Assembly (NCBI GenBank): GCA_017433375.1
Contig: JAFRHG010000015.1
Location: 1-49,264, forward strand
Direction of reading: 5' to 3'
Length of the DNA stretch: 49,264 bases
Source of the DNA: Bacillota bacterium
Lineage (GTDB): Bacteria > Bacillota > Clostridia > Peptostreptococcales > Anaerovoracaceae
Positions 18,383 through 34,723 of this stretch are shown here, in pieces; position 1 is the first letter of the stretch, and the number at the start of each line of letters is the position of its first letter. The notes below the pieces were generated by a model that did no database searches, was not told where the DNA came from, and saw nothing but the letters and a program-made list of their open reading frames with translations. The translations under genes and the position numbers were made by a program.

Positions 18383-19693
<1,311 letters not shown>

Positions 19694-19700
19694 TTATCCA

Positions 19701-20447
19701 TCAGAAATCGATGATCGCCATCAGGTCCGCCGGCTTCAGGGAAGCGCCGCCGACCAGGGCTCCGTCGATCTCCTCCATGTTCATGATCTCACTGGCGTTT
19801 GCCGGTTTCACGCTGCCGCCGTACTGCAGGATCACCTCATCCGCCGTCTCCTCATCGTAGAGATCGATGAGGGTCTGCCGGATGAAGGCGCACATTTCTT
19901 CCGCCTGCTCGGGCGTCGCCGTCCGTCCTGTGCCGATGGCCCAGATGGGCTCGTAGGCGATGACAACCTTACGCATTTCTTCCGCGCTGATGCCCTCCAG
20001 ACCCTTCTCCAGCTGGCCTCTGACCACGTCGAAGAGCTGTCCGGCGTCCCTCTGCTCCAGGCTCTCGCCCACGCACATGATGGGCCGGATCGGGCCTTCC
20101 AGCAGTTTCTTCAGCTTCAGGTTGACCGTCTCATCGGTTTCCGCGAAGTACTGTCTCCGCTCTGAGTGGCCGACGATGCAGTAATCCACGCCGATCTCCT
20201 CGAGCATCTGTACGGAGATCTCCCCCGTATAGGCTCCGCTGTCGGCGAAGTGCACGTTCTGCGCCCCGACGCCGATGCCCGTTCCCCGGAAGGCTTCCAC
20301 CAGAACATCCAGATCGGTAAAGGGCGCGCAGATCGCTGCCCGCACGTCGGTTCCCTTGTAAAGGGCTTTGAAATTGTACGCGAAGCTGGCAGCTTCGGCC
20401 TTTGTTTTGAACATCTTCCAGTTCCCGGCTATAAAGGGTATTCTCAT
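19701..20447 (-). CDS. tpiA: Triose-phosphate isomerase
   Basis: A 248-residue TIM-barrel isomerase interconverting dihydroxyacetone phosphate and glyceraldehyde 3-phosphate. Catalytic residues are visible: Lys in AGNWKMFKT (residue 11), His in CIVGHSERRQYF (near 95) and Glu in VIAYEPIWAIGTG (near 166), with the phosphate loop YGGSVKPANA. The ATG directly abuts the pgk stop codon and its ribosome site GGAGGATAAATA lies within the pgk end, indicating coupling. Confidence 0.98.
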   Translation of the reverse strand: MRIPFIAGNWKMFKTKAEAASFAYNFKALYKGTDVRAAICAPFTDLDVLVEAFRGTGIGVGAQNVHFADSGAYTGEISVQMLEEIGVDYCIVGHSERRQYFAETDETVNLKLKKLLEGPIRPIMCVGESLEQRDAGQLFDVVRGQLEKGLEGISAEEMRKVVIAYEPIWAIGTGRTATPEQAEEMCAFIRQTLIDLYDEETADEVILQYGGSVKPANASEIMNMEEIDGALVGGASLKPADLMAIIDF

Positions 20448-21632
20448 TTATTTATCCTCCAGACAGGCGATACCGGGCAGTTCCTTGCCCTCCAGGAATT
20501 CCAGGGATGCTCCGCCGCCGGTGGAGATGTGGGTCATCTTGTCCGCGTAGCCGAACTGCTCCACAGCCGCCGCCGAATCGCCGCCGCCGATGACCGTTAC
20601 GGCATCGCTCTCCGCCAGAGCCTGGGCGATCGCCCTCGTTCCTTCCGCGAAGGACGGCATCTCGAAGACGCCGCAGGGGCCGTTCCAGACCACGGTCTTC
20701 GCCTGGGCAATGGCCTTTTTGTACAGGTCAATGGTCTTGGGGCCGATGTCCATGCCCATCATATCCGCAGGAATCTGATCCCGGTCGACCACGGTCTTCC
20801 GGCTGTCATTGGAAAACTCCGCCGCGCAGACCGTATCCACGGGCAGGAGCATTTCCACGCCCATGTCCTTCGCCTTGGCCATGAGATCCTTCGCCAGATC
20901 AATGCTCTCCTCGTCCAGGATGGACGTGCCGATCTCCAGGCCCATGGCCTTGAAGAAGGTGTAGCTCATGCCGCCGCCGATGATGATGGTGTTGACCTTT
21001 TTCATCAGGTTCTCGATCACCGGGATCTTGTCGCCGACCTTGGCGCCGCCCATGATGGCGACGAAGGGTCTTTCCGGATTGTCCAGGGCGTCGCCCAGGA
21101 ACTTCACTTCCTTCTCGATCAGGAATCCGGATACCGCCGGCATGTACTTCGCCAGTCCGGCCGTGGAGCAGTGTGCCCGGTGGGCCGTACCGAAAGCGTC
21201 GTTGACGAAGATCTCGCCCAGCTCAGCCAGCTGGCCGGTAAAGGGCTCCTCGTTCTTCGTCTCTTCCTTGCGGTAGCGGGTGTTTTCCAGCAGCATGACC
21301 TGTCCGGCAGGCAGCGCCTTTGCCGCGGCGGTCACCGCCTCATCGACGACCTGATCGGAGGCGACGAAGAGGACTTCCTGCCCAAGCAGCTCCCTCAGGC
21401 GGTCGGCCACCGGAAGCAGAGTGAACTCCGGCTTCGGCTCGCCCTTGGGTCTGCCCATATGGGACATGAGGATGACTTTCGCGTCATGCTCGATCAGATA
21501 CCGGATCGTCGGCAGAGCGGAGCGGATACGGATATCGTCGGTGATCTCGCCGTCCTTCATGGGGACGTTGAAATCGCAGCGGACCAGAACCCGTTTGCCT
21601 GACACATCAATATCTCTGACTGTTTTTTTCAT
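20448..21632 (-). CDS. pgk: Phosphoglycerate kinase
   Basis: A 394-residue two-domain kinase making ATP and 3-phosphoglycerate. N-terminal signature [18 protein letters not shown], substrate segment [10 protein letters not shown], and nucleotide-binding [12 protein letters not shown] and [18 protein letters not shown] near the C-terminus. It lies between gap (52 bp upstream) and tpiA (0 bp). Confidence 0.98.
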
Positions 21633-21684
21633 CTTGATGACTCCTTTGACTGTTGAATATTCTCGAACTTCCCGTGGAAGCGGT

Positions 21685-22698
21685 TTACTTATGGTCTACG
21701 CTGTACATGTGGCGGATGAGCTCCATGACCTTCGTCGCATAGCCGTACTCGTTGTCATAGTAGGCGATCAGCTTGAAGAATTTGTCGTTGAGCGCAATGC
21801 CCATGGTGGCGTCGAAGATGGACGTGTTGGTGTCGCCCACGAAGTCGATGGTGACGCACTGATCTTCTACGTACTCCAGGATGCCCTTGAGTTCTCCCTC
21901 GGAAGCCTTCTTCATGGCCGCGTTGATCTCGTCCAGGGTGGTGGACTTCTTCAGCATGACGTTCAGGTCGACGACGGAAACGTCATTGGTCGGCACACGA
22001 TAGGCGAAGCCGGTCATCTTGCCCTTCAGGGAGGGGATGACCTTGGCCACGGCCTTGGCCGCGCCGGTGGTCGTCGGAATGATGCTGTTGAAGGCGGAAC
22101 GGCCGATTCTCCAGTCTTTCATGTTACGCTTGTCCACGGTGACCTGCTTGGATGTGGCCGCGTGAATGGTTGCCATGAGACCCTGCTCGATGCCGAAGTT
22201 GTCCTCCAGGACCTTGCACTGGGGTGCCAGGCAGTTGGTGGTGCAGGAGGCGTTGGACACAATGTTCATGTCCGAGGTGTATTTGTCCAGGTTAACGCCG
22301 CAGACGAAGGTGGGGGAATCATCCTTCGCGGGAGCGGTGATGATGACCTTCTTCGCGCCGGCGTCCAGATGAGGCTGCGCCTTCTCCGCCGTGTTGTACG
22401 CGCCCGTTCCTTCCACGATGTATTCCGCGCCGCATTCGCCCCACGGAATCATGGAAGGATTGGATTCACTGTATACGGGAACTTCTTTTCCGTCGATGAG
22501 CAGACCGCCCTCATAAGTTCCCAGTTCCTTCGGAAAACGTCCGAAGACCGAGTCGAACTTCAGCATATACACGAGATAATCCAGATCCGCGTTCCGGTAA
22601 TTGATTCCCGCGATCTCGATGTCCGGCATATCCATCGCCGTCCGTATTGCCAGTCTTGAAATACGACCAAATCCGCTGATTCCAACTTTAATAGCCAT
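21685..22698 (-). CDS. gap: Glyceraldehyde-3-phosphate dehydrogenase
   Basis: A 337-residue phosphorylating GAPDH. The catalytic Cys is in [12 protein letters not shown] (near 154) and the P-site in [11 protein letters not shown]. The N-terminus reads [11 protein letters not shown] instead of the usual VGINGFGRIGR. After beta-2, where NAD-specific enzymes have an Asp (AINDL), it has [11 protein letters not shown]. That Asp normally binds the NAD ribose, so cofactor preference may differ. It is first in the glycolytic block after rpoN and has a promoter candidate in the 103-bp gap. Ribosome site GGAGGGACATC. Confidence 0.96.
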
Positions 22699-22742
22699 GA
22701 TGTCCCTCCTGAAAAATGACCATTGAAATAATTAATTCTTTA

Positions 22743-22772
22743 TTTATATCGACCTGCCTGGGGCAGGATCAA
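22743..22772 (-). promoter_or_regulatory. gap promoter with an inverted repeat in the spacer
   Basis: Minus strand TTGATC (22767-22772), 18 bp, TATAAA (22743-22748). The spacer contains CCTGCC-CCA-GGCAGG, a perfect inverted repeat well placed to act as an operator. No cggR is present. Confidence 0.5.
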
Positions 22773-22801
22773 TATCTCCTCTGCCGGGCCCCCGCCGGGC
22801 C

Positions 22802-24193
22802 TCAGTACCGTCTCCTCTTCGACGAGGAGAGGATGCCCAGTTCGTCCCGGTACTTCGCCACGGTCCGCCGGGAAATGGTGAATCCCTTTTCGGCCAGCAT
22901 GCCGACCATGGCCTGGTCGCTGCAGGGCTTCTTCGGGTCCTCGCTGTCGACGATCTCCCGGATGTACTCCTTGATGCTCCGGGAGGAGACCCCTTCTCCC
23001 TGTCCGCCGGTGACACCGGCGGAGAAGAAGTGCTTCAGCTCGAAGATCCCCTGGCAGCACTGCAGGTACTTCCCGTTGATGGACCGGGAAACCGTGGATT
23101 CGTGCACGCCGATCCGCTCCGCCACGTCCCGGAGGGTCAGCGTCTTCATGTATTTGCTTCCGCGGTCGAAGAAGTCCCTCTGGAAATCGACGATCGCCTC
23201 CGCCACATTATATATCGTCTGTTTTCTCTGATCGATGCTGCGGATCAGCCAGAGGGCGGAATTCACCCGGTCCGACAGATACTCCGACAGCTGCTTGTCC
23301 TGATCCGCCTGACGCAGCAGACCCCGGTAATAGGAACTGACCTTCAGCCTGGGGGCGCTGGTGGAGTCGATCTCGATGGCATAGCCGTCCTCCGTCCTCT
23401 CCACGATGACGTCGGGGATGATGTACTTCGTCTCCCCGCCGCCGGCAAACTGCCGTCCCGGCTTGGGCTCCAGCGTCCGGATCACATCGCCCATCTGCTG
23501 CACCTCTTCCGGCGTGATGCCCATGGCCTTGGCGATGACGCCCAGCCGGTTGTCCGCCAGATCCGACAGATGCTCCCGGACGATGGTCTCCAGGGGTTCC
23601 GTCAGCAGGCCCACGCTCCTCAGCTGGATCAGCAGGCACTCCTGCAGATCGGAGGCGCCCACGCCGGAGGGATCCATCTTCTGGATGATCTCCACCGCCT
23701 GCTTTACCCGGTACTCCTTCGCCTGGACCGCCTCCGCGATCTCCGGGACCGTCAGGGTCATGTAGCCGTTCTCGTCCAGGGACTCGATGATGTACTTCCC
23801 GATGCGGTGCACCTCATCGCAGGGAGCCATGAACTGCAGCTGAAAGAGAAGGTGCTCCGGAAGGGTATCGCTGTCGGCAACGTAGCGCTCATAGAGATCC
23901 GTTTCCGGTTCCTTCTTCTCCGCCCACTGGCGGTAACTGATATCGTCGTAGGCGCTGTTGCGGATGTGCTCCTTCCAGTCCAGGGGCTCCGCCTCTTCCC
24001 GGGCGCGGGGCACCGGTTCCTCCTCGGGCATCTCCCGGTCCAGCACCGGATTGGCCAGCAGCTCCTCCTGCACATAGGCATCCAGCTCCTGGGTATTGAA
24101 CTGGAGGATCTTGATTGCCTGGATCAGTTCCGGCGTCATGACCAGTTTCTGCGTCTGTTCAATTGTCAGATCATATCCCAGTTTCAGGCTCAT
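22802..24193 (-). CDS. rpoN: RNA polymerase sigma-54 factor RpoN
   Basis: A 463-residue sigma-54. Region I is Gln/Leu-rich (LTIEQTQKLVMTPELIQAIK, residues 9-28), followed by an acidic region II, the core-binding region (MDPSGVGASDLQECLLIQL), the HTH around ERIGVHESTVSRSINGKYLQ and the RpoN box SRRTVAKYRDELGI near the C-terminus. It directs transcription from -24/-12 promoters and needs an AAA+ activator, one of which lies at 32069-34144. The start MSLKLGYD has GGAG at 7 nt; a GCAAAGGCAA motif copy lies just upstream. Placement of rpoN before gap is known from other clostridia. Confidence 0.97.
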   Translation of the reverse strand: MSLKLGYDLTIEQTQKLVMTPELIQAIKILQFNTQELDAYVQEELLANPVLDREMPEEEPVPRAREEAEPLDWKEHIRNSAYDDISYRQWAEKKEPETDLYERYVADSDTLPEHLLFQLQFMAPCDEVHRIGKYIIESLDENGYMTLTVPEIAEAVQAKEYRVKQAVEIIQKMDPSGVGASDLQECLLIQLRSVGLLTEPLETIVREHLSDLADNRLGVIAKAMGITPEEVQQMGDVIRTLEPKPGRQFAGGGETKYIIPDVIVERTEDGYAIEIDSTSAPRLKVSSYYRGLLRQADQDKQLSEYLSDRVNSALWLIRSIDQRKQTIYNVAEAIVDFQRDFFDRGSKYMKTLTLRDVAERIGVHESTVSRSINGKYLQCCQGIFELKHFFSAGVTGGQGEGVSSRSIKEYIREIVDSEDPKKPCSDQAMVGMLAEKGFTISRRTVAKYRDELGILSSSKRRRY

Positions 24194-24209
24194 GAACGTT
24201 CTCCGGTCT

Positions 24210-24219
24210 GCAAAGGCAA
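24210..24219 (+). repeat. GCAAAGGCAA motif copy
   Basis: Exact copy, followed by C, in the rpoN leader, a few bases upstream of the GGAG ribosome site and antisense to the gene. Confidence 0.85.
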
Positions 24220-24305
24220 CTAAATGATCCCGCACATACTCATTGTACCACATTTACCCTGCCGACGGGGAATTCATTTGCCCGGATTCCCCATTTCGGA
24301 GAAGG

Positions 24306-24386: not shown

Positions 24387-25163
24387 TTATACCATGCCCC
24401 GGTTGACGATCTCCGTCAGCACGAAGGAGGCCACGTCCTCGGCATACTTATGCGGGCCGAAGCCGGCATCGTAGCCCAGTTCCTGAGCCAGTTCGTGGGA
24501 AATACGGGGGCCGCCGCAGACCAGGATCACCTTGTCCCGCATGCCTTCCGCTTCCAGAAGCTCGACCATGTTGGTCAGGTTCTGGATGTGGATGTCCTTC
24601 TGGGTGACCGTCTGGGAAACCAGGATCGCGTCCGCGTGGACTTCCTTCGCCTTGGCGATCAGCACCTCGTTGGGCACCTGGGATCCCATGTTGTAGGCCT
24701 CTACGCCTTCGAAACGCTCCAGGCCGAAATGGCCGTGGAAGCCCTTCATGTTCATGATGGCGTCAATGCCGACGGTGTGGGCGTCCGTACCGGTGGACGC
24801 GCCGACCATGACGACCGGACGGCGGATGTTTTCCTTAATATATTCCGCACACTCCAGACGGTCCATAACATCGACTTCCACCTTGGCCACCTTGATCGTC
24901 GTGTAGTCCACGGTGTGCTGGCACTTGCCGTAGACCACGAAGAAGGTGTACCCTTCCGTCATGCTCTTGGAATAAACCACGTTGGGCTCATCCAGTCCCA
25001 TCTGCTTCGCCAGAAGTCTGGCCGCTTCATCCGCCTCATCACCGTAGGGCACGGGCAGAGTGAAGGCGACTTCCGTCATGCCATCGTTCAGTGTATCGCC
25101 GTAAGGCTTGACCTTGGTCAGGTCAACCTGCGCAACCGCAGTGTTCGCACATTGTTCTGCCAT
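24387..25163 (-). CDS. kamE: Lysine 5,6-aminomutase, beta subunit
   Basis: The 258-residue B12-binding subunit of D-lysine/beta-lysine 5,6-aminomutase. With KamD it moves the terminal amino group of beta-lysine, yielding 3,5-diaminohexanoate. The cobalamin motif DxHxxG is DAHTVG (127-132, ligand His129). Lys140 in MNMKGFHGHFGLER corresponds to the lysine that binds PLP in the well-studied clostridial enzyme. The N-terminal dimerisation region precedes the Rossmann B12 domain. The start overlaps the kamD stop by one base, so the subunits are translationally coupled. Last gene of the operon. Confidence 0.97.
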   Translation of the reverse strand: MAEQCANTAVAQVDLTKVKPYGDTLNDGMTEVAFTLPVPYGDEADEAARLLAKQMGLDEPNVVYSKSMTEGYTFFVVYGKCQHTVDYTTIKVAKVEVDVMDRLECAEYIKENIRRPVVMVGASTGTDAHTVGIDAIMNMKGFHGHFGLERFEGVEAYNMGSQVPNEVLIAKAKEVHADAILVSQTVTQKDIHIQNLTNMVELLEAEGMRDKVILVCGGPRISHELAQELGYDAGFGPHKYAEDVASFVLTEIVNRGMV

Positions 25164-26719
25164 TATTCTGCACCTCCTAACATGAGCGGAATGAACGGAT
25201 TGAAGTATTCATCGTCCTTCACGCAGACGCCTTCCAGACCTTTTCCTCCATCACGGGGACGCTTGACGCCGCCGAACTTGCCCTGCTCGATGGTGGAGAA
25301 CAGGCCTTCCTCGACGATTTCCGCCAGCAGCGCATCCGCCTTGTCCAGGACTTCCTGGGCACGGCTCTGGATGATTCCGCCTTCCTTATAATATACTTCG
25401 GAGCCGAGATCTCTCATGTTGTTGAAGATGTACTGCGCATTTTCAATGGAGAGATAACGGTCATGCATGTGGGGCGTGTGGATCGCCTCGGTCAGCATAC
25501 CCAGCAGCTGCAGGGACTGTCCGGACCAGATGGCGATCATGTTGAACAGCGCGTCCTGAACGTTGCCTTTGAAAATGTTGCCGGTCATGTACTTGGTCGG
25601 CGGCATGTACTTCAGCGGCGCGTTGGGGAAGATCTCCCTGGCCATGATGGCCTGGGACAGCTCGTAGAGGAATCCGTTCTCAATGTCCGGATCCATCTCG
25701 AAAGCGTGGCCGAGACCCATCTGCTCTTCCTTGACGTTGGCCAGTACCGCGAACTGCTCGTTGATCAGCTGGGAGGCCAGCACGGTGTGCGCGTTCTCGT
25801 AGGCGTCGTCCGTGGTCAGGTAGTTGTCCTCGCCGGAGTTGAAGATAATGTCGCAGTATCCGATGATGACACGGGAGAAGAACTGGTCGACCAGCGTTCT
25901 CTGCATGTTGATGTCTCTGAACAGGATTCCGTAGATCGCGTCATTGAGCATGACGTCCAGACGCTCGATGGCGCCCATGGCGGCGATCTCCGGCATGCAC
26001 ATTCCGGAGGAATAGTTGCACAGGCGGATGTAGCGGCCGACTTCCTCGCCGACCTCGTCCAGCGCCTTTCTCATGATCCGGAAGTTTTCCTGCGTCGCGT
26101 AGGTTCCGCCGAAACCTTCCGTCGTCGGTCCGTAGGGAACGTAGTCCAGCAGGGACTGGGCCGTCGTACGGATGACCGCGATAATGTCCGCGCCCTGGCG
26201 TGCGGCCGCCTGGGCCTGCACCACGTCTTCGTAGATGTTTCCGGTCGCTACGATGACGTACAGATAGGGGCGCTTGCCCTCGCCGATGGTGGCCAGGTAC
26301 TCGTTTCTCTTTTCCGTCTGCTTGCGGATCCGCGCCAGCGCGTCGTGCACCAGCGGCATGATCTTCTCTTCCGCTTCCTTGGCGGGAGCCATCTCCAGTT
26401 TGGTAATGTCCATCTCGCCTCTGCCGACAGCTTCCGCGATTTCCTGGGGAGTCTTACCCGTCTGAATCATGGCGTTGCCCATCCAGTAGGCGATGCCGCG
26501 GGGCAGTCCGCCTGCCTTCAGCAGCTGATCCACAACGACGTTCGGCAGCGGCTCATCGAACTCGTCCACACCGTCGACGCCCAGCAGACGGAGGACCGTT
26601 CTCTCCGTACTGACCGTGGTGTGCCTGTCGATGAATTCCTGCATGCTCTGCGCGATTTTCGCCGCGCTGGAGCGGGCATGATCCACCTTCGCCGGATCCA
26701 GGTTCAGTTTACTTTTCAT
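25163..26719 (-). CDS. kamD: Lysine 5,6-aminomutase, alpha subunit
   Basis: The 518-residue catalytic alpha subunit of lysine 5,6-aminomutase (adenosylcobalamin and PLP dependent), with a TIM-barrel core. It is full length and closely family-like: MKSKLNLDPAKVDHARSSAA at the start, YGPTTEGFGGTYATQENFRI and YSSGMCMPEIAAMGAIERLD within the barrel. With KamE it converts L-beta-lysine to 3,5-diaminohexanoate, the second step of anaerobic lysine fermentation. It follows kamC by 12 bp. Confidence 0.97.
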   Translation of the reverse strand: MKSKLNLDPAKVDHARSSAAKIAQSMQEFIDRHTTVSTERTVLRLLGVDGVDEFDEPLPNVVVDQLLKAGGLPRGIAYWMGNAMIQTGKTPQEIAEAVGRGEMDITKLEMAPAKEAEEKIMPLVHDALARIRKQTEKRNEYLATIGEGKRPYLYVIVATGNIYEDVVQAQAAARQGADIIAVIRTTAQSLLDYVPYGPTTEGFGGTYATQENFRIMRKALDEVGEEVGRYIRLCNYSSGMCMPEIAAMGAIERLDVMLNDAIYGILFRDINMQRTLVDQFFSRVIIGYCDIIFNSGEDNYLTTDDAYENAHTVLASQLINEQFAVLANVKEEQMGLGHAFEMDPDIENGFLYELSQAIMAREIFPNAPLKYMPPTKYMTGNIFKGNVQDALFNMIAIWSGQSLQLLGMLTEAIHTPHMHDRYLSIENAQYIFNNMRDLGSEVYYKEGGIIQSRAQEVLDKADALLAEIVEEGLFSTIEQGKFGGVKRPRDGGKGLEGVCVKDDEYFNPFIPLMLGGAE

Positions 26720-26731
26720 CCTTTTTCTCCT

Positions 26732-28363
26732 TTACGTTAAATACTCCTTCGCTCTGTCTATAATGTCGCTTCCTATGCCCAGCATCTGTGCGATATGAAG
26801 CGCATCCCGCGGGACATTGTCCCCGCCGCCTGCCGGACGCAGACGGTAGTTCATATGCCTGCGGATCACGTCGATCCTGCCCCTGGCATCGGCTGCCTTG
26901 AGCTGTGTATCCAGCTGGGAGAAATCCGCGTCCGCAAGTCCGGTAACCTGCAGTTTCACGATATCCTCCTCCGCCGGGCCCAGCTCGTAGTGGGTGGTCA
27001 TCAGCGTAATATAGGCTTTGGTTTTCAGGTGATCGATGATGCTTCTGGTCAGGGCCAGTCCCTCGGAAGGGTTGGTTCCGCCGGCGATCTCATCGATCAG
27101 CAGCAGGGCGCGCGGCTGGCTTTCGTCCAGCATCCGCTTCAGCTCTTCCATCTCGCTGCCGAAGCTGGACAGCCCCCGCTCCACGGACTGACTGTCGCCA
27201 ATCAGGATCCGTACGCTGCTGGAAAGGCCGATCCTGGCCGAGTCGCAGGGAACCGGCATACCGTACTGGGCCATGAGGGGCACCAGTCCGGACAGCTTCA
27301 GGGAGATAGTCTTGCCTCCCATGTTGGCTCCCGTGATGCAGGTGACGCCGTCGGACAGGCCGATGGAGATGGGGCAGTATTCGCTGCCGTCCTTCTTCAG
27401 GATCTCCTCCACCTGCAGATGCCGGCCGTTCTCGAACTCGACCACGTGGTCCGTGACGATCTCGGGAACCGTACACCTGTGCTTCTGCGCGTACTCCGCC
27501 TTGGCGACGGCCAGATCCAGGGCGCCGATCCTCCGGCAGTTTTCCTGAATCATCTTGCCGTGCCCGGCCACATGTGCCGTCAACCGGCGCCGCACGCGGA
27601 ATTCCTCCTGCTCGATTTCCTCTTCCAGATCGTTGAGCTCCCGCAGGATCCGATCCGTCGATTCATCGGCGGCCAGCTGCCAGGTGACGGACATATAGTC
27701 TTCCGCCGACTTTTCCAGGCCGGCGATATTCTCTATCATTTTTATACGGTCACGGTCCGCCTTGCTGACCCGGATGTCAAACTTCGGGGTCAGGGCGATG
27801 CCGTGTTCTTTTTTGAGCTGGGCTGCCTTCTCCTTGCGGAGTTTCCTTCCCTGCCGCTCCGCCTCCTTCTTCCTCTGCCGCAGTTCGGCCAGCTGTTCCG
27901 AGAAACTGTCGTAAATGTAGAACGTGCTGATCCGCCCGCCGTCTGGGTCGAGAATGTCCAGGAGTCTGGTCAGGTCGTCCGGGACAAAGGCCGGGGGGAA
28001 GTGCTCCGTCTCGTTCATCCTGCGGAGCTTCTCCATCTGCAAAAGCAATATTTTCAGCTCAAACAATTCCACGGTGGTCAGGGTGCTGTCCTTGCTTTTT
28101 TCCACGGTCAGCGTGTTGTCCTTGACCAGCATGAGAATCTCTTTGAGTTCGCCGGTCCGGGACGAATCCCGGCCGATGATCTCGCGGATTTCTTCGATCC
28201 GGTCCAGCTCCTCCCGCAGTTCCTCCTCCTGCCCCGGCAGGAAAGGACGGAATCCGCGCAGAAGCCTGGTGCCGTATGGAGTCAGGATGTTCAGGGAAGC
28301 AAAGACGTGTTCCAGTCCCGTTTCCCTTCTCACCTTTTCCGTTGCCAGTTCGTTCTGCTTCAC
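26732..28363 (-). CDS. kamC: KamC, MutS-like ATPase, aminomutase reactivase component
   Basis: A 543-residue protein related to the core and ATPase domains of MutS, without the mismatch-recognition domain. Walker A is GANMGGKT (near 350), followed by the Q-loop area and Walker B ALLLIDEIAGGTNPSEG, then MTTHYELG. A coiled-coil region (about 130-300) is rich in Lys, Arg and Glu. In lysine-fermenting bacteria this gene always accompanies kamB, kamD and kamE and is annotated as part of the system that reactivates 5,6-aminomutase after cobalamin damage. It starts 4 bp after the kamB stop. One GCAAAAGCAA variant lies inside at 28039-28048. Confidence 0.88.
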   Translation of the reverse strand: MKQNELATEKVRRETGLEHVFASLNILTPYGTRLLRGFRPFLPGQEEELREELDRIEEIREIIGRDSSRTGELKEILMLVKDNTLTVEKSKDSTLTTVELFELKILLLQMEKLRRMNETEHFPPAFVPDDLTRLLDILDPDGGRISTFYIYDSFSEQLAELRQRKKEAERQGRKLRKEKAAQLKKEHGIALTPKFDIRVSKADRDRIKMIENIAGLEKSAEDYMSVTWQLAADESTDRILRELNDLEEEIEQEEFRVRRRLTAHVAGHGKMIQENCRRIGALDLAVAKAEYAQKHRCTVPEIVTDHVVEFENGRHLQVEEILKKDGSEYCPISIGLSDGVTCITGANMGGKTISLKLSGLVPLMAQYGMPVPCDSARIGLSSSVRILIGDSQSVERGLSSFGSEMEELKRMLDESQPRALLLIDEIAGGTNPSEGLALTRSIIDHLKTKAYITLMTTHYELGPAEEDIVKLQVTGLADADFSQLDTQLKAADARGRIDVIRRHMNYRLRPAGGGDNVPRDALHIAQMLGIGSDIIDRAKEYLT

Positions 28364-28367
28364 TTCG

Positions 28368-29378
28368 TTACTCCATAACGTCGATGACGGGGATCTCCGG
28401 AACCGCTCTCTGCATGGCCGCGATCAGTTCCTGCTGATCGAAGCGGTAGCCCAGCGGCGCCGTGGGGTTGACGGTGATGGCCGCCACGTTGATCCCGTCC
28501 AGCACCCGGATATCCAGGCCCCGGTTCCTCAGCTTCCGCCAGAGGGGCGCGGGGAAGAATATTCTGGTCGCATCCCGCAGGATAAAAGTTGCCTGCCTCA
28601 GCTTCCGGGGATCGATCCCCTCGATGGATCCGGGGGTGAAGGCGCCGGGAAGGAAGATGTGGCTGACGGAGTCGTCGATCTTCGCCGCCAGCAGTTTCCC
28701 CGCTCCCAGGCCGGTGCGGATGTCCATGACCTCCGCCTTGCCGTCCCGGATCAGGAGGATCCGGTCGCTGTCCCGGTACTCTTCCACGGCCTGCCTGGCC
28801 GGTCCTTCATCCAGTTCCGGAAGGCTGTAGACATCTACCGTGTGAGCGGTCTCCTCCACGACGCTGCTCATCTTTCTCGACAGGACGGCGCCTGTGGACA
28901 GGATGATCGCGTCGGATGTCTCCGGAGCCGCGATGGATTTGCGGTCGATGGCGCCGTCGATCAGAATGACTTCGGCGCCATATCCCAGCATCTTCTCGCA
29001 AAGGGTCTCGTGCTGCGCGTTGATGACCGGTCCGGCCACCTGCACATACCCCGAGGCGGCGACCCTGCAGATCAGGATGGGGCCCAGGGAACTGCCGTAA
29101 TCGGTTCTCTCCAGGATCTCCAGTCCCGCTTCCGCCAGGTCATAGAGCTGCACCGGCACGGATACGAGCGTATCCTCTTCCAGGTAGATGCTCGGCTTTT
29201 CCGTCCCCGTTACCAGGTCCGTCCGTTCGCCGTCGCGTCCGGTGGAGGTGACGCCGCAGATCATGCCCTCGTCCATGGCCTCTTCCAGAAGATAGTTCAA
29301 TGTAGTGGTCTTGCCGGCGTTTTTCGCCATGCCCACGATCGCTATTCTCCTGTACTTTTCTGCCAATTCCCGAAGCAT
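28368..29378 (-). CDS. kamB: KamB, aminomutase reactivase component
   Basis: A 336-residue protein with an N-terminal P-loop GMAKNAGKTTT (about residues 16-26). It is otherwise known only from lysine-fermentation operons, where it is named KamB and paired with the MutS-like KamC as reactivase of lysine 5,6-aminomutase. The mechanism is not well established. The start MLRELAEKY is chosen because GGGAGG lies 4 nt before it; the longer in-frame version lacks a ribosome site. It lies between kamA and kamC with gaps of 51 and 4 bp. Confidence 0.85.
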   Translation of the reverse strand: MLRELAEKYRRIAIVGMAKNAGKTTTLNYLLEEAMDEGMICGVTSTGRDGERTDLVTGTEKPSIYLEEDTLVSVPVQLYDLAEAGLEILERTDYGSSLGPILICRVAASGYVQVAGPVINAQHETLCEKMLGYGAEVILIDGAIDRKSIAAPETSDAIILSTGAVLSRKMSSVVEETAHTVDVYSLPELDEGPARQAVEEYRDSDRILLIRDGKAEVMDIRTGLGAGKLLAAKIDDSVSHIFLPGAFTPGSIEGIDPRKLRQATFILRDATRIFFPAPLWRKLRNRGLDIRVLDGINVAAITVNPTAPLGYRFDQQELIAAMQRAVPEIPVIDVME

Positions 29379-29412
29379 TGATCCTCCCAGCCGGTGCAGT
29401 CCGATCCGCAAA

Positions 29413-29429: not shown

Positions 29430-30689
29430 TTATTTCTTGTTTCTCTCGTGGCGGAGCAGTCCCATGGGTTCCATGGACATTCTCTCGCCTTCCGCCAGTC
29501 CGGCAACGCCTTCGTAACGGTATTCCTCAACCGGCTTGCAGTTCTCGTAGCTGCACTGCAGCTTCGGCAGCATGGTCGGCTCGGTGTAGGTGGTGATGAC
29601 GCCTTCGTAGTTTCTCAGGATCACCTTGTCCGGTGTCTGGGAAATGACGTACTGCGGCATGACCGGAGTCTTTCCGCCGCCTCCCGGAGCGTCGACCACG
29701 AAGGTCGGAACCGCGTATCCGGAGGTGTGTCCTCTCAGGCCCTCGATGAGCTCGATGCCCTTGGAGACCGGTGTACGGAAGTGCTCGATGCCCAGGGACA
29801 GGTCGCACTGATAGATGTAGTACGGCCGGACTCTGTTCTTGACGCACAGGTGGACCAGGTTCCGCATGACGTGGACGTCATCGTTGACGCCTCTGAGCAG
29901 TACGGACTGGTTGCCGAGGGGGATACCCGCGTCGGCCAGCTTGCGGCAGGCTTCCGCTGCATCCGGCGTAACTTCCTTCGGGTGGTTGAAGTGGGTGTTC
30001 AGCCAGATGGGGTGATACTTCTTCAGCATATTGACCAGATCGTCGGTGATTCTCTGGGGCATGACGACAGGGGTTCTGGATCCGATACGAACGATCTCCA
30101 CGTGGTCGATCTTTCTCAGTTCGCTGATGATGTATTCCAGAACATCGTCCTCAACGCACAGCGCGTCTCCGCCGGAAAGCAGCACGTCTCTGACCACCGG
30201 AGTTCTCTTGATGTAGTCGATGCACGCGTTGATGTCTTCCATGCTTCTGGCGCCGTCGGTCTCGCCGGCCAGCCTTCTTCTGGTGCAGTGCCGGCAGTAC
30301 ATGGAGCACTGGTCCGTGATCAGGAACAGGACTCTGTCCGGATATCTGTGGGTCAGTCCCGGAGCCGGGGAGTCCTCGTCCTCATGGAGCGGGTCCAGCA
30401 TGTCGGCTTCGCCTCTGTGGGTCTCCGCCAGCGTCGGCACGGCCTGCATTCTGACCGGGCAGCCGGGATCATCGGGATCCATCAGGGAAGCGTAGTAGGG
30501 CGTGATGCCTACGCGGAAGCCGTGCATGACCTTCTCGATGTCCGCTTCTTCTTCCGGCGTCAGATTCACGACCTTCTTGATCTTCTCGACGGTATCCAGC
30601 CGGTTTGCCACCTGCCAGTGCCAGTCATTCCATTGCTCTTCGGTCACATCCTTGAACAGGGGGATGTCTTTCCAATTTCTGATAGCCAT
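29430..30689 (-). CDS. kamA: L-lysine 2,3-aminomutase
   Basis: A 419-residue radical-SAM enzyme turning L-lysine into L-beta-lysine, the first step of lysine fermentation. The [4Fe-4S] motif is C128-SMY-C132-RH-C135. The PLP lysine is Lys340 in VVDAPGGGGKTPVMP. The C-terminus (CSYENCKPVEEYRYEG) carries the Cys residues used as zinc ligands in clostridial KamA. Length and sequence match the fermentative KamA type rather than short EpmB-like enzymes. It lies 28 bp after kdd. Confidence 0.98.
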   Translation of the reverse strand: MAIRNWKDIPLFKDVTEEQWNDWHWQVANRLDTVEKIKKVVNLTPEEEADIEKVMHGFRVGITPYYASLMDPDDPGCPVRMQAVPTLAETHRGEADMLDPLHEDEDSPAPGLTHRYPDRVLFLITDQCSMYCRHCTRRRLAGETDGARSMEDINACIDYIKRTPVVRDVLLSGGDALCVEDDVLEYIISELRKIDHVEIVRIGSRTPVVMPQRITDDLVNMLKKYHPIWLNTHFNHPKEVTPDAAEACRKLADAGIPLGNQSVLLRGVNDDVHVMRNLVHLCVKNRVRPYYIYQCDLSLGIEHFRTPVSKGIELIEGLRGHTSGYAVPTFVVDAPGGGGKTPVMPQYVISQTPDKVILRNYEGVITTYTEPTMLPKLQCSYENCKPVEEYRYEGVAGLAEGERMSMEPMGLLRHERNKK

Positions 30690-30717: not shown

Positions 30718-31785
30718 TTACGCATACATCTCCGCGAACAGGTCTCTCAGGCCCTGGTGCTCTCTGAGTACCTGCAGGGTGATCTCCGCGTGGCCCTTGG
30801 TGTAGCCGTTGCCGATCATCATGTTGACATCCTTGCCAACGCCCTCTGCGCCCAGAGCAGCCTTGGTGAAGCTGGTGGCCATGGAGAAGAAGTAAACGAT
30901 GCCGTCGTCCTTGCAGGTCAGGATGGAGCCCATCTCGGTGTTCTCGATGGAAACGCAGTTGATGACCACGTCGCACAGCTCGCCATCGGTCAGCTCCATG
31001 ACCTTCTCATACATGCCCACCGCATCGGTGGCATCCATGTGGAAGTAATCGTCCGCCAGATCCAGCTTTCTCGCTCTGTCTTCGGACTTCTGGGAACCGG
31101 CCGCGCAGATGACCTGGCCGGTGACGCCCGCCATCTTCTTGGCCATGTACAGGCACAGCAGACCGGACTTGCCGCCGCCGCCGATAACCAGGACCTTGTC
31201 TCCGGGGCGGGTCAGCTTGGCCGCCTGTGCCGGCGCTCCGGCAACGTCCAGTGCGGACAGGGCCAGACCTTCGGGCATGTCATCGGGCAGCTTGGCATAG
31301 ATGCCGCTCTGGAACAGGATCGCCTGTCCGGTGATGTCGACCTGGTCGATAGCCGGTCTCATCTCGTGGATCTCTTCGATGACCAGCGGGGTCAGGGAGA
31401 GGGATACCAGGGTCGCGATCTTGTCGCCAGGCTTCAGGTCGCCCTTGTACTCCGGTCCGACTTCCTTGACGGTTCCGATCAGCATGCCGCCGGATCCGGT
31501 CCAGGGGTTCTTGTGCTTACCGGCGTTAGCCACGATGTCCAGCATCTTGGCCTTGACCTTCTCCATCGCCGCCTCGTCGCCCTCGATGTCGGCCGGCTTC
31601 TTGCCGTCGCAGACACGTCTGACGATTTCGGTGAAGGATGCGGAGTCGATGTTCAGCGTGATGACGTCGATGAGAACTTCATTGTCGTAGATCTCCATGT
31701 TGTTGTCGATCACGTCTGCCGGCTGCGGCAGGATGCCCTTCGGGGAGATGACTCTGTGCGTTCCAAACGGATTTCCTTTTTTCAT
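30718..31785 (-). CDS. kdd: L-erythro-3,5-diaminohexanoate dehydrogenase
   Basis: A 355-residue NAD(P)-dependent dehydrogenase that oxidatively deaminates 3,5-diaminohexanoate to 3-keto-5-aminohexanoate, the third step of lysine fermentation. N-terminal GroES-like fold (HRVISPKGILPQP; NPWTGSGGMLIGTVKEVGPE) and a Rossmann domain with VLVIGGGGKSGLL at 198-210. First gene of kdd-kamABCDE. The usual partner kce (3-keto-5-aminohexanoate cleavage enzyme) is not adjacent and not in the window. A -24/-12 promoter and an activator-type inverted repeat lie upstream. The N-terminal half of the regulator at 32069-34144 is homologous to this protein. Confidence 0.95.
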   Translation of the reverse strand: MKKGNPFGTHRVISPKGILPQPADVIDNNMEIYDNEVLIDVITLNIDSASFTEIVRRVCDGKKPADIEGDEAAMEKVKAKMLDIVANAGKHKNPWTGSGGMLIGTVKEVGPEYKGDLKPGDKIATLVSLSLTPLVIEEIHEMRPAIDQVDITGQAILFQSGIYAKLPDDMPEGLALSALDVAGAPAQAAKLTRPGDKVLVIGGGGKSGLLCLYMAKKMAGVTGQVICAAGSQKSEDRARKLDLADDYFHMDATDAVGMYEKVMELTDGELCDVVINCVSIENTEMGSILTCKDDGIVYFFSMATSFTKAALGAEGVGKDVNMMIGNGYTKGHAEITLQVLREHQGLRDLFAEMYA

Positions 31786-31903
31786 GTGCTTGTTCCTCCT
31801 TGTAAAACAGGTGTTATTGACAGGACCGGTGACCAGTGGATGAGCATTTTCCGCCGACCCCAGGTCCTTTGTAACCAGTCCGTTACGTTACATTCTATGT
31901 TAA

Positions 31904-31918
31904 GCAATTTGTATGCCA
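31904..31918 (-). promoter_or_regulatory. Sigma-54 promoter of kdd-kamABCDE
   Basis: Minus strand TGGCAT-ACAAA-TTGC: GG and GC are spaced exactly as sigma-54 needs, with one deviation from TGGCAC. Predicted start near 31892, about 107 nt before the kdd ATG. Confidence 0.78.
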
Positions 31919-31972: not shown

Positions 31973-32040
31973 GAACCGGTTATTCGTCTTGTATTAATCG
32001 GGATACAATCCCCCTCCTCTCTGAACCGGTTTTGGTTCAG
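31973..32040. promoter_or_regulatory. Activator site(s) upstream of the kdd promoter
   Basis: CTGAACC-GGTTTT-GGTTCAG (32021-32040) is a perfect 7+6+7 inverted repeat about 140 bp upstream of the predicted kdd start. A half-site GGAACCGGTT begins at 31972. The same core occurs upstream of kal at 34215-34232. Between them, TTGTAT/ATACAA arms (31989-32008) form another inverted repeat. Confidence 0.7.
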
Positions 32041-32068: not shown

Positions 32069-34144
32069 TCACTCGATGTTGTACTTGTTCTTTTTGCGGA
32101 CGAACTGGGTCTGGCTGACGCCGATGGCTTTGGCTGCCCGGCGGGTTGAGCCGTACTTTTCCCAGGCGTAGCGGATCAGATCCTTCTCAAAGGCGTCCAC
32201 CAGCTGGGTCAGGCTGGCGTTCTCCCGGTCGATCTCTTCCCTGCCCGCCGCGTCCTGCATGCGCATGGCCACCTTCTCTTCCATCTCCGTCAGCACGTCC
32301 ATGATGGTGATGCTGTCCTGGCGGCTGGCGATCATCAGCCGCTGGATGACGTTCTCCAGCTCCCGGATATTGCCCGGCCAGGGACGGTTCTTCAGGTATT
32401 CCACCGCGTCGTCATCGATGTATTTGTTCATGCCGAACTTCTCGTTGTACCGGCCGATGAAGGCGTGGATCAGGGGCGGGATGTCCTCCCTGCGCTCGCT
32501 TAGGGCGGGGATGTTGATGGGAAAGACGTTCAGCCGGTAATAGAGGTCCCGGCGGAATTGCTTTTGCTCCACCATGTCCTCCAGCCTGCGGTTGGTGGCG
32601 GAGATGATCCGCACGTTGGTCTTGATGGGCACCGTTCCGCCGACCCGGAGGAACTCGCCGTCCTGGATCACCCGCAGCAGCTTGGCCTGCATGTCCAGGG
32701 GCAGCTCCCCCACCTCGTCCAGGAAGATGACCCCGTTGTCCGCCGCTTCGAAAAGGCCCTTCTTGCCCCTGGTGTCGGCGCCGGTGAAGGCCCCCTTCTC
32801 GTAGCCGAAAAACTCCGATTCCATCAGGTTCGGAGAGATGGAGGCGCAGTTGATCCGGATGTAGGGGTACATGTTGCGCTTGCTGTTCTTCTGGATCAGG
32901 CCGGCCACTTTCTCCTTGCCGACACCCGTATCCCCGGAGATCAGCACGTTGCAGTCATACTTGGCCACGCTCAGGGCCTCCTCCAGAACTCCGCTCATGG
33001 TTTTGCTGGCGACGACGAAATCCCGGGCCTCCGACAGGTTCTGTCCCCGGTAGATCTCCTCCAGCTCCATTTCGTAGGTCACCCGGCGCTCCTTCTTTTT
33101 CCTGGCCTCCCGGCTGATGAGGCCGCCCTCCAGCCAGGGCGCCAGCTCCCGCACCAGGTCGTAGTCGAATTCATCGTACTCCAGAATGTACCCGTCGGCG
33201 CACTTGATGCGCAGCTCCCGGGAAACGGCCTCCGTGATGTACAGGGCGATGTTGTAATTGCTGATGAAATTGGCGAAGACCACCGTTCCGCCGGAGCGGG
33301 TCACCATGATGTTGATGGTCTCCGAACCGGGGATATCCACGCAGTTGACCGTCAGGTCCATCTGGGGATAGGGCTCCAGGGTCTCCAGGCAGGATACGGG
33401 CCGCAGCATGTTCATCCGCACCTCCGCGTCGAAGACCTGATCCATCAGTTCCCGGATCCTTTTGCCCTGGAGGGGATCCTCCGCGTTACGGTCCAGGAAG
33501 CAGTAGATCTTCGCCTCCGGACCCGCCGCCCGGCGGATCGTATAGCCGTAGAGGAGGTTGGTCAGGGTGTTGTTGCCGATGACCGCGAAGTTCTTCTTCC
33601 CCTCCGCCTCCTTGCAGACGTTGTATATGGTTCCCGACTCGTTGAATACAAAAAGCAGCAGATCTTCAGGCAGATCCGCCGGTTTTTTTAAAATGGGCAC
33701 GCCGGGCAGAAGAATGGCGTAGCCCTCCGCTTCAAATTGGGGGTGGATGGGGTCGATGGAGGTAATGTTGGAAACGGCCATGGGCAGGCCGGCCAGGGAG
33801 GCATTGCAGAACACCTCGTCCCCGACGGCGAATCCGCCCCCGTTCTCATAGTCCGGCGCGATCTCCTCGATGACGCCGTACAGCACGCCGCCCGTGTCCG
33901 TCACCGGATTGTGCAGTTTTCCCCGTTTCAGTATGATGTCGGAAATGATCTCCTTCAGGCGCTCCTCATCCCGGCCCGCGTCCTGCCACATCTGGCGGAA
34001 GCTGGTTCCTTCAATATGGACCCGCCTCAGGCTGACCCGGATCTCCCCCTTGCGCAGCTCCCGGCTGTTGTCCAGTTCCCACGCGGCCGCAGGGAAAACC
34101 TGCGGCGGAGACACCACTCTGTCGATCCCGTAGTTGCTCTTCAT
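32069..34144 (-). CDS. Sigma-54 activator with a Kdd-derived sensor domain
   Basis: A 691-residue enhancer-binding protein. Residues 1-345 are homologous to Kdd: YGIDRVVSP matches FGTHRVISP, and LHNPVTDTGGVLYGVIEEI matches HKNPWTGSGGMLIGTVKEV. The Rossmann loop, GGGGKSG in Kdd, is GNNTLTN here (190-196), so NAD use is doubtful. The AAA+ domain follows: Walker A GDTGVGKE (404-411), the sigma-54 loop GAFTGA (451-456), Walker B VIFLDEV (472-478) and PWPGNIREL. A Fis/TyrR-like HTH is at 664-690 (TRRAAKAIGVSQTQFVRKK). Start supported by AGAGGAAG. It lies between two sigma-54 promoters, for kal and kdd, and most likely activates both when the sensor binds a lysine-pathway intermediate; the ligand is inferred. 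Confidence 0.92.
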   Translation of the reverse strand: MKSNYGIDRVVSPPQVFPAAAWELDNSRELRKGEIRVSLRRVHIEGTSFRQMWQDAGRDEERLKEIISDIILKRGKLHNPVTDTGGVLYGVIEEIAPDYENGGGFAVGDEVFCNASLAGLPMAVSNITSIDPIHPQFEAEGYAILLPGVPILKKPADLPEDLLLFVFNESGTIYNVCKEAEGKKNFAVIGNNTLTNLLYGYTIRRAAGPEAKIYCFLDRNAEDPLQGKRIRELMDQVFDAEVRMNMLRPVSCLETLEPYPQMDLTVNCVDIPGSETINIMVTRSGGTVVFANFISNYNIALYITEAVSRELRIKCADGYILEYDEFDYDLVRELAPWLEGGLISREARKKKERRVTYEMELEEIYRGQNLSEARDFVVASKTMSGVLEEALSVAKYDCNVLISGDTGVGKEKVAGLIQKNSKRNMYPYIRINCASISPNLMESEFFGYEKGAFTGADTRGKKGLFEAADNGVIFLDEVGELPLDMQAKLLRVIQDGEFLRVGGTVPIKTNVRIISATNRRLEDMVEQKQFRRDLYYRLNVFPINIPALSERREDIPPLIHAFIGRYNEKFGMNKYIDDDAVEYLKNRPWPGNIRELENVIQRLMIASRQDSITIMDVLTEMEEKVAMRMQDAAGREEIDRENASLTQLVDAFEKDLIRYAWEKYGSTRRAAKAIGVSQTQFVRKKNKYNIE
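32558..32567 (-). repeat. GCAAAAGCAA motif variant
   Basis: Variant copy inside the sigma-54 activator gene, sense strand, read as Gln-Lys-Gln, followed by T. Confidence 0.55.
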
Positions 34145-34190: not shown

Positions 34191-34232
34191 TCGGATACAC
34201 CTTTTCATCCATTTTGAACCGAAATCGGTTCA
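34191..34232. promoter_or_regulatory. Activator site upstream of kal
   Basis: TGAACC-GAAATC-GGTTCA (34215-34232) is a perfect 6+6+6 inverted repeat, with GA..TC extending inward. It ends 28 bp before the -24 element. A weaker relative begins at 34191 (TGAACA-N6-GGATAC). Confidence 0.72.
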
Positions 34233-34259: not shown

Positions 34260-34276
34260 TTGGCACAGCATTTGCA
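34260..34276 (+). promoter_or_regulatory. Sigma-54 promoter of kal
   Basis: TTGGCAC-AGCAT-TTGCA is an exact match to the -24/-12 consensus TTGGCAC-N5-TTGCW. The predicted start near 34287 gives a leader of about 47 nt. Confidence 0.92.
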
Positions 34277-34333
34277 ATAGATAATCGGCGTAACACCATC
34301 AATCATCTCTCATTGAACCTTAAGGAGAATAAC

Positions 34334-34723
34334 ATGGAAAAGATTACTTCAACCCTGAGATTACGTATGTCCCACAAGGATGCCCACTACGGCGGAAGCC
34401 TGGTGGACGGCGCTCACATGGTTCACCTCTTCGGAGACGTGGCCACCGAGCTGCTGATCAAGGCCGACGGAGACGAGGGTCTGTTCCTGAGATACGATGA
34501 GGTCGAGTTCCTGGCTCCCACCTATGCCGGCGACTACATCGAAGCTTACGGCGAGATCACCGAGTTCGGCAACACCTCCAGAAAGATGGTCTTCGAGGCC
34601 AGAAAAGTCGTCGCGGCCAGACCGGACATCAGCCCCTCCGCTGCCGACGCGCTGGATGAGCCCATCGTCGTTGCCAGAGCCAAGGGCGTCTGCGTAACCC
34701 CGAAGGAAGCCAAGAGAAAATAA
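34334..34723 (+). CDS. kal: 3-aminobutyryl-CoA ammonia-lyase
   Basis: A 129-residue single hotdog-fold protein matching Kal of lysine fermenters, which removes ammonia from L-3-aminobutyryl-CoA to give crotonyl-CoA. The N-terminal [20 protein letters not shown] and the central helix region [19 protein letters not shown] are typical. AAGGAG lies 6 nt before the ATG at 34334. It is transcribed away from the regulator and the kam operon, from a near-perfect sigma-54 promoter, and ends at a terminator at 34785-34836, so it is monocistronic. Codon use is strongly biased, as expected of a highly expressed gene. Confidence 0.93.

Follow-up and report, generated by a model that had tools for sequence, protein, structure and literature searches.

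The window, that is, the whole stretch of 49,264 nucleotides that was analysed, contains a gene located between the divergent gene kal and the operon kdd-kamA-kamB-kamC-kamD-kamE. We call this gene kddR (a name coined here); it encodes a sigma-54-type activator of 691 amino acids with a sensor domain apparently derived from Kdd. The genes of the minus strand follow in the order kddR, kdd, kamA, kamB, kamC, kamD, kamE and then rpoN, and kdd and each kam gene were called by an NCBIfam model above its cut-off. The features of the locus are the following.

34313-34723, plus strand: kal, 3-aminobutyryl-CoA ammonia lyase, divergent from kddR (NF052388, above cut-off)
34261-34276, plus strand: sigma-54 promoter-like site TGGCACAGCATTTGCA upstream of kal
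34216-34231, plus strand: putative KddR operator GAACCGAAATCGGTTC, 29 bp upstream of the kal -24 element and near the kddR start
32069-34144, minus strand: kddR, sigma-54-type activator of 691 amino acids
33110-34144, minus strand: kddR sensor domain, residues 1-345, Kdd (MDR) fold
33557-33577, minus strand: degenerate Rossmann loop of kddR, GNNTLTN, residues 190-196 (GGGGKSG in Kdd)
32501-33013, minus strand: AAA+ sigma-54 interaction domain of kddR, about residues 378-548
32777-32794, minus strand: GAFTGA loop of kddR, residues 451-456
32075-32215, minus strand: HTH_50 DNA-binding domain of kddR, residues 644-690
32023-32038, minus strand: putative KddR operator GAACCAAAACCGGTTC, 104 bp upstream of the kdd -24 element
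31903-31918, minus strand: sigma-54 promoter-like site TGGCATACAAATTGCT upstream of kdd
30718-31785, minus strand: kdd, 3,5-diaminohexanoate dehydrogenase
29430-30689, minus strand: kamA, lysine 2,3-aminomutase (TIGR03820, above cut-off)
28368-29411, minus strand: kamB, lysine 5,6-aminomutase reactivase subunit (NF052386, above cut-off)
26732-28363, minus strand: kamC, reactivase ATPase, MutS-like (NF052383, above cut-off)
25163-26719, minus strand: kamD (NF052384, above cut-off)
24387-25163, minus strand: kamE (NF052385, above cut-off)
22802-24253, minus strand: rpoN, sigma-54 itself (PF00309, PF04963, PF04552)

The rpoN gene lies directly 3' of kamE and is followed by gap-, pgk-, tpi- and eno-like genes (window 18383-24253, gene names by reading). 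The position beside gap, pgk, tpi and eno is frequently occupied by the glycolytic operon's own regulator.

Profile searches assigned the AAA+ domain of KddR to Sigma54_activat (PF00158, E = 1.2e-65), with Walker A (GDTGVGKE at residue 404), Walker B (at residue 471) and GAFTGA all present, and its C-terminal HTH to PF18024 (E = 2.7e-13), in agreement with the first-pass annotation, which had described a complete GAFTGA motor and an HTH fused to the sensor. No PAS domain was matched in the protein up to an E-value of 1. Structure prediction and comparison of residues 1-345, which the same annotation had aligned with Kdd by eye, showed the Kdd fold across the entire domain. The claim that a complete sigma-54 activator adjoining the pathway operon carries an input domain derived from Kdd was thus borne out by profiles, fold and neighbourhood. 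By its domains, by the presence of rpoN in the window and by the exact -24/-12 sites before kal and kdd, KddR is a sigma-54-dependent bacterial enhancer-binding protein, and it is presumed to activate transcription in an ATP-dependent manner. As an enzyme, the sensor falls outside Kdd: it scored 119 bits against the NF052381 equivalog model, of which the cut-off is 200 bits and against which the free Kdd of the window scored 240, and it has GNNTLTN in place of the glycine-rich NAD(P) loop.

The annotation had also called for a tree of Kdd-like domains with and without the AAA+ fusion. In our tree of 100 domains (57 Kdds and 43 sensors), a single branch parted all Kdds from all sensors (SH-aLRT 99), and the same split was obtained in a more careful tree of 40 rows (bootstrap/SH-aLRT 100/99). 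Since one branch separates all sampled Kdds and sensors, the split is old, and the view of the sensor as a retired copy of this genome's own kdd had to be abandoned; both trees rule out a recent duplication of that gene. Both trees are unrooted, a single ordinary MDR dehydrogenase having been found in the sampled loci, so that the direction from Kdd to sensor is suggested by the fusion and by the loss of the loop. The tree allows a single old fusion event, and the sensors closest to Kdd came from genomes G586, G055, G068/G079, G118 and G192. Six enhancer-binding proteins of about 700 amino acids that matched only residues 341-690 (L056 to L061) were considered as carriers of hidden divergent Kdd domains and rejected, their N-termini being CBS/PAS-like by eye.

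Comparison of the dinucleotide loops showed that four early-branching sensors (L097, L070, L071 and L054) keep it, as GAGGKIG, GANGKVG, GASSKIG or GANGKIG, and that the sensors of L049 and L052 read GAWTKLG. The remaining sensors, including that of the window, have patterns such as GNNLLSN and GNNTLTN; the full G..GK.G pattern is absent from every derived sensor, and L041/L043 and L047/L048 retain only G.G. The change from GGGGKSG to GNNTLTN that had been noticed at first therefore holds for the window protein, but not as a trait of the family, because four sensors near Kdd keep the loop. At 24 positions, many of them in GK..NP.T..GG, the same residue occupies at least 95% of each set, the 43 sensors and the 57 Kdds; in the window protein these positions include G75, K76, N79, P80, T82, G85, G86, E275 and E305. 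Another eight positions are invariant within the 29 core sensors and within the Kdds but differ between the two groups, among them the swaps D83 for G97 and T84 for S98 in the active-site loop. Residue Glu310 of Kdd touches the NADPH amide (PMC9902596). Its equivalent, E305 of the window KddR, is among the positions retained in at least 95% of the sensors, and Gly323, the neighbour of Glu310, corresponds to G318. The sensor of the window lineage is likely to be without NAD chemistry, as was first proposed, but with E305 kept it may still bind a nucleotide. Taken as a whole, the initial reading was right in its observation but only partly in its interpretation, the sensor being no copy of the present kdd.

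A Kdd-type domain was found in 31 of 391 genomes of the class and was fused in seven of these (frames of at least 686 amino acids, the window's genome included); all seven also encode a free Kdd, and the other 24 have the free Kdd only. In the phylum sample, 64 of 299 genomes had a match and two a fusion, G586 and the window's own. A scan of genome contigs with the peptide pattern RGK[LM]HNPxT, which is carried by none of the 57 Kdds of the tree, gave at least 590 sensor-domain relatives among 593 stretches, the fusion itself being checked in the best 80 of these loci. The relatives include Emergencia timonensis, Aminicella lysinilytica, Hornefia butyriciproducens, Clostridium aminobutyricum, Sinanaerobacter chloroacetimidivorans and [Eubacterium] infirmum. 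Of the best 80 loci, 78 hold KddR, and two (L129 and L179) stop inside kddR at the contig end. The neighbourhood is conserved: kal was divergent in 68 of the 71 KddR loci with more than 800 bp upstream, kdd was downstream of kddR in 62 of the 64 loci with more than 1.5 kb, and kamA was downstream in 54 of the 57 with more than 4.5 kb. Tandem copies of kdd occur in L166 (12247-14541, Emergencia timonensis), and also in L139-L142, L150-L152 and others; the L166 genome has an extra GAACACATTTCGGTTC site some 1.2 kb downstream from the operator of kdd, in what appears to be the space between the two copies.

We then considered the sequences upstream of kdd and kal. The window matches TGGC-N7-TTGCW exactly at just two places, one upstream of each of kdd and kal. 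When one mismatch was allowed, 27 sigma-54-like matches were found against a shuffle mean of 18.8, and five of 100 shuffles were as high; only the exact sites are informative, because the one-mismatch matches barely exceed the shuffles. Among related regions, 69 for each gene, the strict site TGGC-N7-TTGC pointed to kdd in 54 and to kal in 48, while on the wrong strand it was found in 0 of 69 at either gene and in random 400-bp chunks of the same loci in 32 of 1560. Both exact sites of the window have the palindrome GAACC-N6-GGTTC upstream of them. This pattern alone is unspecific, since four of its six places in the 1.95-Mb genome lie outside the KddR locus. In the related regions, GAAC-N8-GTTC was present in 104 of 138, against 134 of 2340 random 350-bp chunks.

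The distance between the palindrome and the promoter differed in behaviour at the two genes. At kal, the operator stood 29-30 bp from the -24 element in 33 of 34 operator-promoter pairs (33 loci). At kdd, this distance ranged between 52 and 213 bp and changed by about 11 bp at a time, with a periodicity of 10.9-11.0 bp (38 distinct distances, R = 0.65) that none of 2000 random sets equalled; 60 distances were taken, one overlapping case (-123) being excluded. Such phasing would fit DNA looping that requires one face of the helix.

Our preferred interpretation, to which as a whole we give a probability of about 0.82, is that KddR controls lysine fermentation in these gut bacteria as a one-component activator that depends on sigma-54 and has a Kdd-type sensor. 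A Kdd-type dehydrogenase domain would have been joined to an activator, keeping many residues of the active-site half and losing its dinucleotide loop in this lineage. KddR would bind the GAACC-N6-GGTTC palindromes upstream of kal and of the kdd-kamABCDE operon, and a metabolite of the pathway would fill the old substrate pocket; 3,5-diaminohexanoate, or else a beta-amino acid intermediate close to it, is the likeliest candidate. Occupancy of the pocket would then release the AAA+ ring to remodel the sigma-54 polymerase at the -24/-12 sites. Computation established the domain fusion and the fold, a long-standing shared ancestry with Kdd, a conserved neighbourhood, conserved and phased promoter- and operator-like sites and purifying selection acting on the sensor. 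The identity of the ligand is suggested by descent and operon context, the binding of KddR to the palindromes and the ligand-dependent release of its motor are probable, and the sequence of ligand binding, ring release and activation is proposed by analogy with the enhancer-binding protein family.

The entry substrate is a common inducer of catabolic operons, and the sensor might thus read lysine or beta-lysine rather than 3,5-diaminohexanoate or 3-keto-5-aminohexanoate. The swaps D83 for G97 and T84 for S98 of the core sensors could suit another amine, and the paralogue pair of L041 adjoins kamA with no free kdd in the stretch covered; common descent with the 3,5-diaminohexanoate enzyme and the many retained loop residues argue against this alternative, which we consider unlikely though worth serious attention. 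An input from the redox state or from NAD(P)H through the old cofactor site agrees with the loop kept in the four early-branching sensors and with the retention of E305 and G318 in the window protein. However, the window loop reads GNNTLTN, no derived sensor has a full G..GK.G, and the operon-specific pairing with Kdd points toward a pathway ligand, so that a redox input seems improbable.

Alternatively, given the lost cofactor loop, the N-terminal domain could be purely structural, a dead oligomerisation scaffold in a protein of which the activity is set by expression level or by a partner protein, and catalysis by the domain is indeed not expected. We regard this as very improbable: residues of the former active-site loop are conserved, this type of sensor is encoded at many loci, and the sensor is under purifying selection, with dN/dS of 0.006-0.10 in the eight of 12 pairs with computable dS, values that are rough because several dS exceeded 1. 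As for an artefact of assembly or frame, the draft assembly of the window genome has 38 contigs and is 89% complete, but unbroken frames of similar length occur in many independent assemblies, including strains of Emergencia timonensis, Aminicella lysinilytica and Hornefia butyriciproducens, and this explanation is effectively ruled out.

Comparison of the AAA+ domains showed that GAFTGA was replaced or deleted in 12 of 79 KddRs (those of the 78 loci and of the window), in a manner that differs between clades. These proteins (L142, L151, L154, L160, L163, L167, L168, L171, L175, L176, L181 and L182) include those of Aminicella lysinilytica, Hornefia butyriciproducens and [Eubacterium] infirmum. 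The HTH was conserved in 11 of the 12, the sequence of L175 ending before it, and one clade (L142, L151, L160 and L167) has LNE instead of LDE in Walker B. Strict sigma-54 sites were missing in all 12 GAFTGA-less loci but in only five of the 65 with an intact GAFTGA (L156, L165, L169, L173 and L177, of which L165 has a TGGT variant); the Fisher value of 1.7e-10 ignores relatedness, and two KddRs without a scorable region were excluded. Counted by region, 15 of the 69 upstream of kdd and 21 of the 69 upstream of kal have no strict site, and GAFTGA-less relatives account for 11 and 12 of these, respectively. RpoN was present in 10 of the 12 genomes, so that the change is specific to KddR in most of them.

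The palindrome was recognisable at kdd in nine of the 11 GAFTGA-less loci having a kdd region. A -35/-10-like pair (at least 10 of 12 positions) began 46-47 bp past the palindrome in nine of nine GAFTGA-less loci and in none of 47 with an intact GAFTGA, the closest case among the latter being L166 with a weaker pair (9 of 12) at 45 bp. Taken singly the boxes are weak, since for eight of the nine loci 0 to 19% of shuffles scored as high, and for the ninth, L142, the shuffles used a stretch ending before the box; it is the fixed spacing, not the individual scores, that makes them credible. GAFTGA was likely lost repeatedly, with four changes on the best tree and one forced by well-supported branches. 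Its joint loss with the promoter corresponds to one to four independent pairs, for which a sign test is not significant. GAFTGA variants were also found in paralogues outside the 79 counted (NSFTGA in L047 and GAFTGS in L045).

The 12 proteins thus appear to have made a switch resembling that of TyrR, with a putative action on sigma-70 promoters. The input region of TyrR includes an ACT domain and, unlike that of KddR, no enzyme-derived domain. E. coli TyrR is described as an AAA+ activator-family protein without GAFTGA and tied to sigma-70, with a PAS input (PMC6375630). We tentatively propose, at somewhat below even odds, that a single dehydrogenase-activator fusion was followed by stepwise wear of the sensor and then, in several lineages, by abandonment of the motor, with GAFTGA gone and the -24/-12 elements giving way to -35/-10-like ones while the operator was unchanged and the DNA-binding domain conserved. 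If this is true, stages between enzyme and sensor, and between control by sigma-54 and by sigma-70, would survive today at one operon. The relatives that lose GAFTGA and the sigma-54 promoter are natural experiments on a change of sigma factor with the same operator.

Enzyme-derived sensors in which a catabolic enzyme fold serves as ligand sensor are known from the MocR/GabR aminotransferase-like regulators and from Gal3/Gal80 of yeast. Unlike KddR, these have other folds, other DNA-binding or partner modules and no AAA+ motor. The fold of the KddR sensor is shared with the Kdd structures PDB 7DL0, 7DL1, 7DL3 and 7DL7 (NCBIfam NF052381), to which KddR adds the AAA+ and HTH domains and from which the window lineage differs by the lost cofactor loop; because Kdd has solved structures and adjoins kddR, the path from enzyme to sensor can be traced at the level of single residues. 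KamR of Bacillus thuringiensis HD73 is reported likewise to adjoin a lysine 2,3-aminomutase operon, being a sigma-54 activator next to the kamA operon that it activates, but its input is a PAS domain and not a Kdd-type one, and the term 'kdd' is absent from the main text (PMC4428206). The sigma-54 activators of 57 Clostridiales species form 39 groups, including PrdR and OrdR, which like KddR are associated with amino-acid fermentation operons and are mostly one-component. The input domains named in the main text of that survey, as far as available, are PAS, GAF, PTS-HPr, PrpR_N, ACT, CBS, Fer4, Fe_hyd_lg_C, FeS, V4R and receiver; a Kdd-type dehydrogenase is not among them, nor do 'lysine', 'kdd' or 'kam' occur in that text (PMC6615313). 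A Kdd-domain activator was not found among the open-licence titles and abstracts listed, and within these the first-pass remark that no described activator with a diaminohexanoate dehydrogenase input was known stands. KddR would thus represent a class of enhancer-binding protein sensor undescribed in the literature searched, with relatives in named strains of lysine-fermenting anaerobes.

Kdd-domain activators were also observed beside other genes, and the class of ligands may therefore be broader. The labels Kce, TRAP, permease and aminotransferase at these paralogue loci come mostly from sequence reading. A sigma-54-like site before the neighbour was present in nine of the 16 loci examined (L049, L052, L054, L184, L041, L047, L053, L055 and L187); no such site was found in L185, L186, L045, L046, L048, L050 and L051. 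A distinct second clade of Kdd (100/99) was formed by L049:10516-11589, L052:6392-7432, L184:10068-11111 and L185:7201-8238, of which those of L049 and L052 read GKFQDPVTKSGG. These Kdds adjoin Kdd-domain activators, Kce, Kal and a TRAP transporter or permease, as well as AtoDA in L049 and L052; kamA is absent from the stretch read around them, and L049 has another Kdd at its end. Such loci could possibly serve to take up a 3,5-diamino acid from outside and degrade it. Two Kdd-domain activators stand in tandem in L041 (8071-12312) and L043 (2258-6423); the tandem of L041 adjoins kamA-, thiolase-, AtoDA- and aminotransferase-like genes, with no free kdd in the stretch read. The activator of L047 adjoins an aminotransferase-like gene. 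At L053:2464-4074, L055:5518-7080 and L187:5956-7458, the activator is divergent from a transporter of the Na+/H+ antiporter family, a candidate amino-acid transporter; the family was tested by profile for L053 and L187, and the sigma-54-like site lies before the transporter.
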